64,000 nt of DNA, taken from NCBI RefSeq assembly GCF_030269515.1, contig NZ_BSTM01000024.1:1-64000 (forward strand), in the 5' to 3' direction. Below the pieces are notes generated by a model. That model did not search any database. It was given only the letters and a program-made list of their open reading frames with translations, and was not told the DNA's origin. This stretch comes from Actinomadura sp. NBRC 104412 (lineage in GTDB: Bacteria > Actinomycetota > Actinomycetes > Streptosporangiales > Streptosporangiaceae). Of this stretch, positions 59,910 through 63,781 are shown piece after piece. The stretch's first letter is position 1; each line of letters starts with the position of its first letter. The position numbers were made by a program, and so were the translations under genes.

Positions 59910-59983
59910 GCGCCCATAGCTCAGCCGGACAGAGCATCGGTCTTCTAAACCGACGGTCGGGGGTTCGAATCCCTCTGGGCGCG
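59910..59983 (+). tRNA. tRNA-Arg (anticodon TCT)
   Basis: A 74-nt cloverleaf: acceptor GCGCCCA pairs with TGGGCGC at 59976-59982 plus discriminator G; D-arm AGCTCAGCCGGACAGAGC; anticodon arm CGGT-CTTCTAA-ACCG with TCT; T-arm GGGGGTTCGAATCCC. CCA is not encoded. A TACACT -10-like box lies about 14-19 nt upstream. Decodes AGA, a rare codon in high-GC genomes. Confidence 0.97.
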
Positions 59984-59990
59984 CCCTCCC

Positions 59991-60020: not shown

Positions 60021-60115
60021 CAGATCAAAAGGTCGGGCTGATGGCGCTCGCCCAAGTGACACGGTGTCCGTCTACTGAGCGGCAGGCGCTCCGGGGGCCG
60101 CTCTGCTGCGCAGGA

Positions 60116-60286
60116 TCAGCGATGCTCGGCAAGCGCGGCCTTAAGCGCCTCACGACTGACCACCAAGTTCGGCCCGTGAGGATCCTTACTGTCGCGGATG
60201 CCCACGGCCTCACCAAGGCGAGCCAACTCCACGCAGTCGGACCCGCCCTGCGTCCCGCTGTAACTACTCTTCCGCCACACCGTCAC
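60116..60286 (-). CDS. DUF397 protein, array copy 1
   Basis: A 56-residue DUF397 protein: VTVWRKSSYSGTQGGSDCV, then ARLGEAVGIRDSKDPHGPN and SREALKAALAEHR. GTG 60286 has GGAGGAGGG about 8 nt upstream. Nearly identical to copy 2 next door; one of four copies on the minus strand that follow an XRE-DUF5753 gene. Confidence 0.9.
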   Translation of the reverse strand: MTVWRKSSYSGTQGGSDCVELARLGEAVGIRDSKDPHGPNLVVSREALKAALAEHR

Positions 60287-60399
60287 TATGAAATCCCTCC
60301 TCCAAGACCCTCTGGATCAAGTCACGCGACTGCACTGCGGCAACGTTGCGACCCCCGACTGAGCAGCAGGCGCTCCGGGGGCCGCTCTGCTGCGCAGGA

Positions 60400-60570
60400 T
60401 CAGCGATGCTCGGCAAGCGCGGCCTTCAGCGCCTCACGGCTGACCACCAACTTCGGCCCGTGAGGGTCCTTACTGTCGCGGATACCCACGGCCTCACCAA
60501 GGCGGGCCAACTCGACGCAATCGGACCCGCCGGTCGTCCCGCTGTAACTACTCTTCCGCCACACCGTCAC
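60400..60570 (-). CDS. DUF397 protein, array copy 2
   Basis: A 56-residue DUF397 protein differing from copy 1 at a few sites (GTTGGSD; HGPK). It lies exactly 284 bp from copy 1. GTG 60570 follows GGAGGAGGG. Standard length and motifs, so functional by inspection. Confidence 0.9.
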   Translation of the reverse strand: MTVWRKSSYSGTTGGSDCVELARLGEAVGIRDSKDPHGPKLVVSREALKAALAEHR

Positions 60571-60667
60571 TGTGGAATCCCTCCTCCACCACCCTTTGGA
60601 TCAGGTCTCACGACTGCACCCCCCAACTGAGCGGCAGGTGCTCCGGGGGTCGCTTTGCTGGGCAGGG

Positions 60668-60853
60668 TCAGCGGTGCTCGGCAAGCGCGGCCTTCAGCGC
60701 CTCACGGCTGACCACCGACTTCGGCCCATGAGGGTCCTTACTGTCGCGGATACCCACGGCCCCACCGATGCGGGCGAGTTCAACACAGTCGGACCCGCTC
60801 GTCGTCCCGCTGTAACTACTCTTCCGCCACCCTTTGTCGCGACTGCCCCCCAA
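60668..60853 (-). CDS. DUF397 protein, array copy 3, with altered start region
   Basis: From KGWRKSSYSGTTSGSDCV onward it matches the other copies, but the GTGACGGTG start and the GGAGGAGGG site found in copies 1 and 2 are gone: the upstream spacer is joined directly at the WRKSS codons. A TTG at 60853 would read GGSRDKG before the conserved part, without a clear ribosome site. It may be untranslated or weakly translated. Confidence 0.6.
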   Translation of the reverse strand: MGGSRDKGWRKSSYSGTTSGSDCVELARIGGAVGIRDSKDPHGPKSVVSREALKAALAEHR

Positions 60854-60894
60854 CTGAGCGGCAGGCGCTCCGGGGGTCGCTCTGTTGCGCAGGA

Positions 60895-61068
60895 TCAGCG
60901 ATGCCCGGCGAGCACGGCCTTCAGCGCCTCACGGCTGACCACCAAGATCGGCCCGTGAGGGTCCTTACTGTCGCGGATACCCACGGCCTCACCAAGGCGG
61001 GCCAACTCGACACAGCTGGAGCCGCTCTGCGTCCCGCTGTAACTACTCTTCCGCCACATCATCGTCAC
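60895..61068 (-). CDS. DUF397 protein, array copy 4
   Basis: A 57-residue DUF397 protein (VTMMWRKSSYSGTQSGSSCV, ARLGEAVGIRDSKDPHGPI, REALKAVLAGHR). Start GTG 61068 lies inside the last codons of the XRE gene, with GGAGG about 9 nt upstream. It is the copy adjacent to the regulator and so may be the ancestral one. Confidence 0.88.
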   Translation of the reverse strand: MTMMWRKSSYSGTQSGSSCVELARLGEAVGIRDSKDPHGPILVVSREALKAVLAGHR

Positions 61069-61875
61069 TCTGGAACGCCTCCTCCATGACCCTTCGGATC
61101 AAGGCTACGCTCTGCCCAGCGGGAAGAACAGCGCCCATGATCCGCGTAAACAGGATCGCGAATTCTGCGACCTCGCGGGGAGACGATATAAGGCGCCCGC
61201 CACCCAACGATTCGGTGTAGGCCACTTCGCCGAAGTCGTCGCCGGTCAGCAGCGTCAAGGCACCGTCCAGACCAGGGTAGGCGCCCGTGTCGAAGGTTGC
61301 TGGGATGACGTGGACGAGAACGTTGTCTCGCTCGGCGACCTTGAGGACATGTGACAGCTGGTCCCGCATGATGGCGGGCGAGCCAATCGGCCGTCGGAGC
61401 ACTTCCTCGTCCAGAACGGCGGTGACGAACGCGCGATCCAGAATCGACTGACGTGCCATTCGCTCGGCCACGTCCTCCTCGACCTTGGGTGACCCGCCGC
61501 CGATCAGCAACGCCCGAGCATAGTCCTCCGTCTGGAACAGAGGCTGGATCAATTTCGGTTCAAAAGCCCGATGAGTCGAGAATCCTGCTCGAAGCCCTTC
61601 ATGTCGGCGAGCCACTGGGGTCGGTGGCCGATGCTGGCGAAGAACACCATGCGCTCGAAGTGGCCGCCCGTCTCCCATGCCACATCGAGCAGGTGAGCCT
61701 GCTTCGCGTCGAGTCGCTCCTTGCCGGTTTCGATCTTGGAAACCGTGGACTTGGACGCGCCGATGATCCGTCCCAGCGACTCACCTGACAGGCCGCGTTG
61801 CTCGCGGCAATGCCTCAGATAGACGGCTATCTCGTTCCACAGGCTCGCCTTCGGATCGAGCGGTGAGCTGCCCAT
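61043..61875 (-). pseudogene. XRE-DUF5753 regulator with frameshift
   Basis: The first part (ATG 61875, after AGGGGGA) encodes an XRE helix-turn-helix (SGESLGRIIGASKSTVSKIE) and a DUF5753 start up to MKGFEQDSRLIG, then stops at 61549. The remainder continues in another frame (RAFEPKLIQPLFQTEDYARAL, HVIPATFDTGAYPGLDGAL) to 61043. One missing base near 61570 (CATCGG for CATCCGG on the minus strand) explains the break. It could be a true pseudogene or a sequencing error. Confidence 0.8.
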
Positions 61876-62081
61876 TGCCAGTCCCCCTTGGTTTTCGATC
61901 GTTTCCGATCGCCGTGCACAGTCGAACGGTAACGCCAATGGCGTGAAGGTAAAGGCCGGACAACGAAAGATTCGGACCCGGAGGGCGGGATGTCGGAAAC
62001 GATCCTTTTGTCCCTGCCGGGATTCGTAGCCCGGCCGTCGGCAAGCGGGCAGGGCGGCCTACCCACCAAGGACATGAACGG

Positions 62082-62519
62082 ATGACCACGGCAAGCATGA
62101 TCGAAAATCTGGAATGGAGCGCGCTGCCCGTCCGCAGCCTCGCGCAATCGTGGCGCATCCTGCTGACCTCGCGCATGGAGCGCCATCCGGCCATTTCCGG
62201 TGAGCTGGCCTACGACATCCTCGTCACCGCATCAGAGCTGATCACCAACGCCGTGGAGCACGCGCCGCCCGACGACCCGATCACCCTGCGAGTACGGCTC
62301 GCCGAGAGCTGGGCGTGGCTGGGCCTGTGGGACGCGTCCAACAGGCCGCCCACGCCTAAGCCTTTCCCCCAAGAGGCCGCCGATCTGGACGGCATCGTAG
62401 CCGCTCTTCATGAGAACGGCCGCGGGCTACAGATCGTCACGGCCCTCGCATCCGATCAGGGGGTCCAGTTCACTCCGCCCAAAGGAAAATGGGTCTGGTC
62501 CAGTTTCCAATTCACGTGA
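62082..62519 (+). CDS. Anti-sigma-type ATP-binding regulatory protein
   Basis: Predicted 145-residue GHKL domain protein: N-box SELITNAVEHAPPDDP (about 50-65), G1 LGLWDASNRPP and G2 ENGRGLQIVTALASDQG. Divergent from the XRE-DUF5753 locus, the same order as at 30176-32079. Probably a partner-switch component with that regulator. ATG 62082 follows AAGGA. Confidence 0.88.
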   Translation: MTTASMIENLEWSALPVRSLAQSWRILLTSRMERHPAISGELAYDILVTASELITNAVEHAPPDDPITLRVRLAESWAWLGLWDASNRPPTPKPFPQEAADLDGIVAALHENGRGLQIVTALASDQGVQFTPPKGKWVWSSFQFT

Positions 62520-62533
62520 CCACGTCCTGGCTG

Positions 62534-63781
62534 TTAAGTGGTTCGGGGCGGGTTTGGGTGGCGGTGGGTGGATGCTAGGGCGAAGGTCAGGTAGGCCGCC
62601 AGTAAGGCGATGGCGGCGACCTTGAACATCGTGGCTACTCCGACCCACTCGGCCAGGGCGCCGCCGATGGGTGGGCCCAGGACCTTGCCCAGGTCCAGGC
62701 CCATGTGCAAGAAGGCCGAGACCAGGCCGTGGGGCTGGTCGTCGCGGGTGTCCTCGAAGGCCGAGGCGGCACCGGTGACCCGTAGCAGGCCGCGGGACAG
62801 TCCGGCCGCGGCGAACACCACGGCCTGAAGCCAGAACGACTCGCGGACGACGGGCACCAGGTACAGGGTGGCGACGCCCAGCAGGAACATCGGCGTGGTC
62901 AGGGAACGGCCGCTGACTCGGGCGAAGAGCGGGCCGGACGCGATCCTCGTCACCGACGACGTGAGGGAACGCACACTGGCCAGCAGGCCGATCTGCGTCA
63001 GGGTCAGGCCAGCGGCCAGCGCCAGCACCGGCTGGAAGGTGCTGAGCAGCGCGTTGTGCACGTTGATGAAGAACATGATCAAGGCGCCGCCGAACACCGC
63101 CATCGGCAGCGTTCGGATCGATCGCAACGCCGACAGTGCGTTGTGCTCCTTGCCGTCGTCATCCCTGGCGCGGGTCGCCGCGGCGAGTTGTCCCGGCAGC
63201 GACCGCAGCATGACCGCGGTCGCCAAGGCCGGGAACGCCGCCAGTACCAGGAAGCCGGCCGTGTAGCCCAGCCTGTCGGCCACCAAACCCGCGGTGGCAC
63301 CGCCGACGGCGTTCCCAAGACCCGTGAAGCCGGAGTACCAGCCCATGGCCGACGCGATCGACAGGTGCGACGGGCGGGACGCCACCAGTACGGTCAGCTG
63401 CGTGGTGGTGGCCATCGCCCAGCCGACGCCGTCCATCGCCATCAGCGCCCCGAACAGGACCAGTTCGTCCGTGAGCGGGACGACGGCGAAGGCGCCGGCC
63501 GACAGCAGCCCGCCGACGAGCAGCAGCGGGCGGACCCGGTCGGCCGCGTAGCCGGCGCCGACCGGCAACCGCGTCAGCAGCGAGCTCAGCCCGAAGATCG
63601 CCAGTACGGTGCCGATGGCGCCGGGACCGTGGCCGCGGCCGTCGGAGAGGTAGGGCGGCACCAGGACGTGCAGTGCCGCCTCGCCGGAACTGTAGAGAAA
63701 GACGCAGAGGTACGACGCGGCCAGAGGGTTGCCCCGGCTGAACGGGTTGAGCCGGCGTCGTCGCGCCTCCCCCTCATTCAC
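62534..63781 (-). CDS. MFS transporter
   Basis: Predicted 415-residue membrane transporter with about twelve helices. It has ASYLCVFLYSSGEAALHVL (helix 1), GYAADRVRPLLLVGG (loop 2-3) and AIFGLSSLLTRLPVGAG. Homologous to 12-TM efflux/sugar-type MFS. Overlaps the ABC transporter gene end by 8 nt, so it probably belongs to the same operon. Substrate unknown. Confidence 0.9.
   Translation of the reverse strand: MNEGEARRRRLNPFSRGNPLAASYLCVFLYSSGEAALHVLVPPYLSDGRGHGPGAIGTVLAIFGLSSLLTRLPVGAGYAADRVRPLLLVGGLLSAGAFAVVPLTDELVLFGALMAMDGVGWAMATTTQLTVLVASRPSHLSIASAMGWYSGFTGLGNAVGGATAGLVADRLGYTAGFLVLAAFPALATAVMLRSLPGQLAAATRARDDDGKEHNALSALRSIRTLPMAVFGGALIMFFINVHNALLSTFQPVLALAAGLTLTQIGLLASVRSLTSSVTRIASGPLFARVSGRSLTTPMFLLGVATLYLVPVVRESFWLQAVVFAAAGLSRGLLRVTGAASAFEDTRDDQPHGLVSAFLHMGLDLGKVLGPPIGGALAEWVGVATMFKVAAIALLAAYLTFALASTHRHPNPPRTT

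Follow-up and report, generated by a model that had tools for sequence, protein, structure and literature searches.

Four DUF397 genes lie in tandem beside one XRE/DUF5753 regulator gene in Actinomadura sp. NBRC 104412, and two of the four are preceded by fragments of that regulator's own 3′ coding end. Judging from the sequence, we consider it likely that the array grew from one copy to four by tandem duplication of the regulator tail together with the DUF397 gene. The tail fragments, and a frameshift in the regulator, are features that were absent from the first-pass annotation of this DNA. The array is ordinary in kind, tandem DUF397 arrays being documented and common (they are already in print in PMC7159879 and PMC8269248); what is added here is the regulator-tail fragment as a mark of one way in which arrays can grow, plus the adjoining broken regulator frame.

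DUF397 genes are highly multiplied in filamentous actinobacteria: genomes that contain bldB have 19 paralogues of it as the median (PMC10294661). In the parts of the literature on DUF397, DUF5753, and bldB–whiJ paralogues that were consulted, we found no description of regulator-tail fragments or of how the arrays arise. The tail fragments document, in the sequence itself, the way some arrays grow and which copies are translatable on their own, and they make the question of dosage testable, as young arrays with recognizable junctions can be found by search; for a single locus, the value is modest. Here, "the window" is the whole stretch of DNA that was analyzed, 64,000 nucleotides long (positions 1 to 64,000 of contig NZ_BSTM01000024.1), and the draft genome from which it comes totals 7.85 Mb over 131 contigs.

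Structure of the locus

The locus derives from an XRE–DUF397 gene pair, and one DUF397 gene still follows the regulator immediately and in the same orientation, in the layout of such a pair. As the array is on the minus strand, this regulator-proximal gene is numbered copy 4. The coding features are as follows:

60116..60286, minus strand: DUF397 copy 1, the most regulator-distal; GTG start, 56 aa; PF04149, 70.5 bits
60400..60570, minus strand: DUF397 copy 2; GTG start, 56 aa; PF04149, 70.4 bits
60668..60853, minus strand: DUF397 copy 3, without RBS and GTG start; in-frame TTG, 61 aa; PF04149, 62.3 bits
60895..61068, minus strand: DUF397 copy 4, regulator-proximal; GTG start, 57 aa; PF04149, 70.6 bits
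61043..61678, minus strand: regulator C-terminal part, DUF5753; PF19054, 137.5 bits; frame differs from that of the HTH part
61549..61875, minus strand: regulator N-terminal part, XRE HTH; PF13560, 40 bits for the ORF 61549-61938

The four genes span 60116-61068, and all four ORFs match DUF397 (PF04149) at 62.3–70.6 bits against a Pfam cut-off of 24, which bears out the four-copy array beside one regulator that the first-pass annotation had described. Its spacings of 284, 268, and 227 nt are likewise reproduced by an ungapped alignment of a 262-nt unit, present four times with starts at 60074, 60358, 60626, and 60853; units 2, 3, and 4 are 92, 76, and 77% identical to the first (60074). Copies 1 and 2 had been called nearly identical, but the wording was too strong, for they are 92% identical over the unit and differ at 11 of 162 coding sites, and any two copies of the array differ at 11 or more of these sites.

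The spacers measure 65 nt before copy 3, 106 nt before copy 2, and 122 nt before copy 1. As had been noted, copy 3 is without the RBS and GTG start: its short spacer has neither GGAGGAGG nor the in-frame GTG, both of which are present before copies 1 and 2. Its reading frame is open from the TTG at 60853, which leaves the 61-aa ORF. The start of copy 4 overlaps the 3′ end of the regulator by 26 nt (counted between ORF ends).

The regulator has both of its domains, XRE HTH and DUF5753, in different frames rather than in one protein. The HTH frame, for which the ATG start at 61875 was picked from the ORF translation, closes at 61549, and the DUF5753 frame is open to 61043. In an alignment with relatives, of which one lies on contig C59 of this genome and four belong to other genomes, the regulator is one base shorter than all five at about position 61570. 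The two domains share one open frame in 15 of the 16 closest homologues; in the remaining one, L067, the HTH match is partial. Although a single-base frameshift could be a sequencing error, a real one would probably be young, given that the DUF5753 part still scores 137.5 bits. With its frame broken, control by the regulator is probably altered or lost. A second XRE/DUF5753 regulator of this genome, on contig C9 beside a single DUF397 gene (L049:1173-1986), also has its DUF5753 match split over two frames.

Regulator-tail fragments

The ribosome-binding site (GGAGGAGG) and the start of the DUF397 gene are located inside the 3′ coding end of the XRE/DUF5753 regulator. Three stretches are to be compared:

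61060..61125, minus strand: regulator tail, the stretch of 3′ coding sequence in which the RBS is embedded; it corresponds to the fragments before copies 1 and 2
60278..60343, minus strand: regulator-tail fragment, by alignment to the tail; it holds copy 1's RBS (GGAGGAGG) and start region
60562..60608, minus strand: regulator-tail fragment with the RBS and start region of copy 2, by alignment to the tail

The fragment before copy 1 aligns to the regulator tail of its own locus over 66 nt at 78% identity, and the one before copy 2 over 47 nt at 81% identity. For either fragment, none of 300 shuffles did as well, and the own tail was the best of 43 (z 7.8 for copy 1 and 8.5 for copy 2). Ahead of copy 3, nothing in the spacer matches the regulator tail (shuffles did as well in 60 of 300 cases, and z was 0.7 against the tails of other loci).

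On the spacer side, both fragment alignments run up to a W codon; on the tail side, they stop 3 nt short of it, an offset due to the one extra codon of copy 4. A GTG placed 12 nt before this conserved W codon and within the regulator frame is found in all eight of the close homologues L090–L097; in L098, the ninth homologue examined, there is an ATG 18 nt before the W, and the regulator stop precedes the W. Where the present regulator reads QSVALI, the copy 1 fragment reads QSRDLI, which resembles RSRDLI of the homologue G021. Going by these few residues, an earlier form of the tail may survive in the copy 1 fragment.

Origin of the array

All three spacers share the junction CTCAGT(T/C)GGGGG...GCAGTCG, in which CTCAGT closes the unit; beyond copy 1, the flanking sequence departs from this pattern as soon as CTCAGT ends. 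From this common junction and the diverging flank, we infer one founding duplication followed by unequal crossing-over. In a DNA tree, rooted at the midpoint only and leaving the order of copies within the array unfixed, the four copies form one side of a branch (support 89/98; 86% of 200 bootstrap trees). Nearest to them are the two copies of another array in this genome, on contig C36 (91/91), so that the two arrays look like separate expansions of related loci. Identity is 86–94% within the array versus 70–77% to the best-scoring other DUF397 domains in a set of 223 domains.

The first-pass annotation had proposed recent unequal recombination. Recombination agrees with the single tree branch and the common spacer junction, but "recent" can be kept only in a relative sense, as pairwise dS among the copies runs from 0.13 to 0.41. 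A single-copy version of the locus was not encountered at this position in the chromosome; three homologues inspected with wide flanks had no cobD, MFS, or HATPase match.

Tail fragments of the locus's own regulator are found before copies 2 and 1 and not before copy 3. Growth by duplication of tail and gene together would have begun with an illegitimate duplication that started inside the regulator tail and yielded a second, self-sufficient translation unit, that is, a tail with RBS, a DUF397 gene, and a spacer. Homologous unequal crossing-over between units would then have added copies and carried the common junction along. A later deletion would have removed the leader of copy 3, and a later loss of one base would have split the regulator.

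Selection on the copies

Changes unique to one copy among the four were counted. Copy 1 has 5 synonymous and 0 nonsynonymous changes and copy 2 has 2 and 0; copy 3 has 5 and 4 as printed, or 6 and 3 after hand correction of one double-hit leucine codon, and copy 4 has 2 and 5, with two of the five in one codon. In binomial tests against an assumed neutral nonsynonymous share of 0.70, on counts that are small and changes that are not polarized by a model, p was 0.0002 for copies 1 and 2 together (0/7), 0.025 for copy 3 as hand-corrected (3/9) or 0.10 as printed (4/9), and 1.0 for copy 4 (5/7). Copies 1 and 2 differ from copy 4 by Fisher's test (p = 0.02), and pairwise dN/dS is lowest between copies 1 and 2 (0.13) and highest between copies 2 and 4 (0.65). 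At the level of sequence, this suggests that copies 1 and 2, each with its own leader, are constrained, and that copy 4, whose start sits in the end of the frameshifted regulator, is less so.

These counts bear on whether the array is a decaying remnant, in which the regulator has become a pseudogene, the start of copy 3 is gone, and the other copies persist for lack of time. Decay would account for the frameshift and the start loss, and also for a nonsynonymous share that is no different from neutral in copy 4 and, as printed, not significantly below 0.70 in copy 3. It sits poorly with the seven unique changes of copies 1 and 2, not one of them nonsynonymous, with the difference between these copies and copy 4, and with the four DUF397 domains and the DUF5753 part, which all score well over their cut-offs. 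Because copies 1 and 2 look constrained, wholesale decay is unsupported, and we regard a decaying remnant as rather unlikely. Of the earlier suggestion that amplification was followed by decay, the start loss of copy 3 and the frameshifted regulator can be retained, but copies 1 and 2 do not conform to it.

If the array did grow by duplication of tail and gene, the overlap of the DUF397 RBS and start with the regulator end might shape DUF397 growth more widely: a duplication would have to include the regulator end to give a working extra copy, and cassettes that include the tail would multiply DUF397, uncouple the copies from the regulator's end, and let arrays outlive their regulator. We put this forward tentatively, as a possible but not a probable generalization. 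Were it true, the window would have caught the process mid-step, with two self-sufficient and constrained copies beside a broken regulator, and there would be a route to the regulator-free DUF397 arrays reported in PMC7159879.

Function and known systems

By domains and layout, this is an XRE–DUF397 locus of the WhiJ/BldB/AbaA type. On the divergent side of the regulator are the following:

62082..62519, plus strand: divergent HATPase_c_2 gene, AbaA-like by domain and layout; PF13581, 44.4 bits
61897-61908 and 61993-62004, no strand assigned: arms of a candidate operator pair, an exact 12-nt inverted repeat in the divergent intergenic region

An HATPase_c gene beside the regulator is what the whiJ/bldB/abaA type has, and the AbaA label used here denotes domain and layout, after PMC10294661, rather than sequence comparison. 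From the literature on XRE–DUF397 loci, the DUF397 proteins are taken to be co-regulators. They would modulate the XRE regulator, which would control its own operon and probably also the divergent HATPase gene, and with extra copies, DUF397 would become more abundant relative to the regulator, or its pool more varied. That the DUF397 proteins are XRE co-regulators here, and that the array amounts to a change in the amount or mix of DUF397, is by analogy a plausible reading, which we hold with somewhat less than even confidence.

Several known systems can be compared. Streptomyces clavuligerus has XRE-(n)DUF397 units in which one XRE regulator is followed by several tandem DUF397 genes, as here; 5 of its 20 XRE–DUF397 transcription units are tandem, and DUF397 output exceeds XRE output within pairs (PMC8269248). 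Unlike those units as described in the consulted part of that source, the present locus, from a different genus, has tail fragments and a frameshifted regulator. The whiJ/bldB/abaA loci of S. venezuelae, for example whiJ9-bldB9-iosA, also join an XRE regulator to a DUF397 (BldB-like) partner, and 5 of 10 bldB paralogues there have an HATPase-type abaA gene nearby (PMC10294661). Our locus differs from the S. venezuelae loci, as that source presents them in the part consulted, in its four DUF397 genes and split regulator frame; its candidate operator is the inverted repeat GATCGTTTCCGA, whereas the WhiJ9 repeats are direct repeats, CGXXCTCAAC (PMC10294661). Scr1/Scr2 (SCO4441/SCO4442) of Streptomyces coelicolor is an XRE–DUF397 pair (PMC6262351), which is like the present locus except that, going by the portion of that source consulted, the four DUF397 copies and the split regulator frame are particular to ours.

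DUF397 genes occur in multiple tandem copies in and outside VMAP-ternary systems (PMC7159879), and arrays with an HTH gene resemble the one described here. The VMAP-system arrays without an HTH gene (PMC7159879) differ in that respect, the HTH gene being present in our locus, and no VMAP components were noticed among the ORF lists and Pfam matches looked through.

A type II toxin–antitoxin locus with amplified toxin genes, DUF397 being the toxin and XRE the antitoxin, is a further alternative, proposed for such genes from genome context (PMC2701414, PMC7159879). We consider it very unlikely: when 14 DUF397 proteins were overexpressed in S. coelicolor, viability was not clearly affected (PMC10364602), the behavior of Scr1/Scr2 is not that of a toxin–antitoxin system (PMC6262351), and constrained toxin genes could hardly be maintained next to an antitoxin gene that is broken.

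Tail fragments in other arrays

Each inter-copy spacer was scored against the tail of its own locus and against the tails of other arrays, and z > 4, a line that we set ourselves, was required for a fragment. The final set comprised 42 arrays with 64 spacers. L140 was removed as a copy of L038, with its tail kept among the 43 control tails; also left out were L012 (fragmented), L092 and L101 (the same as loci L062 and L046), the lower DUF397 of L006, and spacers shorter than 30 nt (2 of 69, by our own count of copies). The arrays came from the genome analyzed here (G000), from relatives found by similarity, and from the 80 regulator loci listed out of 473 confirmed; with sources chosen by similarity and listing, the 42 arrays form a non-random set. 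A comparison of the 43 arrays for 40-mers in common showed L139 to be close to L038/L140, and single ones were shared by L046 with L034 and by L062 with L061.

The own tail ranks first for 18 of the 64 spacers versus about 1.5 (64/42) expected, and 16 of the 64 pass z > 4 over the tails of other loci; these 16 belong to 13 of the 42 arrays, among them the one in the window. The other 29 arrays have no fragment above that line, among them the four-copy arrays L002 and L038 with a spacing of 188–194 nt; the tail route is thus not established as the only or main one. L005, L009, L010, and L046 beat shuffles but fall to z 0.3–3.4 against the tails of other loci. The strongest fragments belong to L161 of Streptosporangium saharense (98% identity over 136 nt) and to L008, from the same genome as the window (93% over 137 nt). 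Copies are more similar in fragment-bearing arrays (Mann–Whitney p = 0.004), which is consistent with fragments eroding over time. In the two-copy array L161 (L161:4855-5246), the copies are the most alike of the arrays compared.

One might also read the regulator-like stretches as leaders that have converged, or as short leader peptides, themselves translated, through which translation is coupled to the copy that precedes. A 50-aa ORF (60264-60416) does start in the end of copy 2 and traverse the fragment before copy 1. Yet the own tail is the best of 43 for both fragments in the window, matches of 93–98% over 136–137 nt as in L008 and L161 are not expected from convergence, and a TGA interrupts the regulator frame of the copy 2 fragment just upstream of its best-conserved part (judged by eye). 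We consider leaders of either kind very unlikely and retain duplicated regulator tails as the explanation.

DUF397 copy number in the genome and its relatives

The genome contains 62 stretches that match PF04149, and the loci fetched from it include, besides the window array, one six-copy and two other four-copy arrays (L001, L002, and L004). The closest homologues of the regulator are 16 regulators with 57–69% protein identity, from 65 genomes of the genus that were searched. Among the matches listed, the best named relatives of the regulator are Actinomadura records, one of them a 100% match to a genome of the same genus (G011). Fourteen of the 16 have one full DUF397 copy beside them and two have two; one of the 14 single-copy loci has a further partial DUF397 match. 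A wider survey covered 80 loci among the matches listed from a scan with the regulator profile, in which 473 were confirmed. The full copies beside these 80 listed regulators numbered none in 11, one in 51, two in 10, three in 5, and four in 3, and 10 of the 11 zero-copy loci have a partial DUF397 match. One DUF397 gene per XRE partner, which the first-pass annotation took to be usual, is hence the state of the majority (51 of the 80 listed), but 18 of the 80 have at least two copies and 3 of the 80 have four.

Partial DUF397 pieces occur elsewhere in the same genome, beside or without full copies (L003:2828-2890, L013:2027-2113, and L012:2024-2633), as if arrays also lose copies. Two further loci of this genome meet contig ends: L041:2841-3458, on C59, has a related regulator with an HATPase neighbor and runs off the contig, and L010:1900-2671, on C36, is a related DUF397 array, near a contig end, that has one in-frame stop as well as tail-like leaders. 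L041 and L010 may be one locus split by assembly.

That the copy number, the frameshift, or both are an artefact of assembly or sequencing is suggested by the draft state of the genome (131 contigs) and by the related C36 array near a contig end, but is highly improbable. For the copy number, the four units differ mutually and each spacer is distinct, which false duplication by the assembler would not yield; the single-base frameshift has evidence neither for nor against an error. In such an assembly, four copies could be a lower bound.

Genomic neighborhood

Two neighbors flank the module:

59910-59985, plus strand: tRNA-Arg, adjoining the module beyond copy 1
62534-63781: MFS transporter gene

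The cobD and tRNA-Arg region is matched, at least in part, in all 65 genomes of the genus, our own included. At E ≤ 1e-100, the MFS gene (62534-63781) is matched in 1 of the 65, which is the genome itself. The MFS stretch is an accessory stretch beside the widely conserved cobD/tRNA-Arg region. An island at the tRNA-Arg was considered and rejected: no second tRNA-Arg 3′ end was found in the window on both strands, or in C24:58500-98000 on the plus strand with up to 2 substitutions. In four relatives, the stretch beyond the tRNA-Arg was also inspected. Three have no DUF397 or DUF5753 match there, one of these (L083) having a weak HTH match, and the fourth (L085) has an HTH/DUF5753 regulator without DUF397.

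No HATPase match was found in the flanks of L090–L098, the nine closest named loci among the matches listed; within L090–L111, only L099, L101, L105, and L106 have one (E 1e-5). This speaks against the HATPase gene as a fixed partner of the regulator, though a DNA match to the HATPase gene of the window is present at the related locus on contig C59. The arms of the intergenic inverted repeat read GATCGTTTCCGA and TCGGAAACGATC, and the repeat was not found upstream of L090–L098 with up to 3 mismatches allowed. The 14-mer GATCGTTTCCGATC has one exact occurrence in the genome and three more with one mismatch.

A search for sites found nothing promoter-like or terminator-like, and Rfam gave no match except the tRNA. 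The spacer between copies 2 and 1 folds better than shuffles (z −2.65, 4/200), and folding is no better than that of shuffles for the two remaining spacers and for the flank beyond copy 1 (z 0.29, −0.35, and −0.64). A terminator role was dropped, with one of four folded stretches beating shuffles and no terminator-like site. Among solved structures, there was no real match to DUF397 (best E 0.72); the regulator profile matched five chains at E ≤ 0.01, covering its first 64 positions, the HTH part, only.
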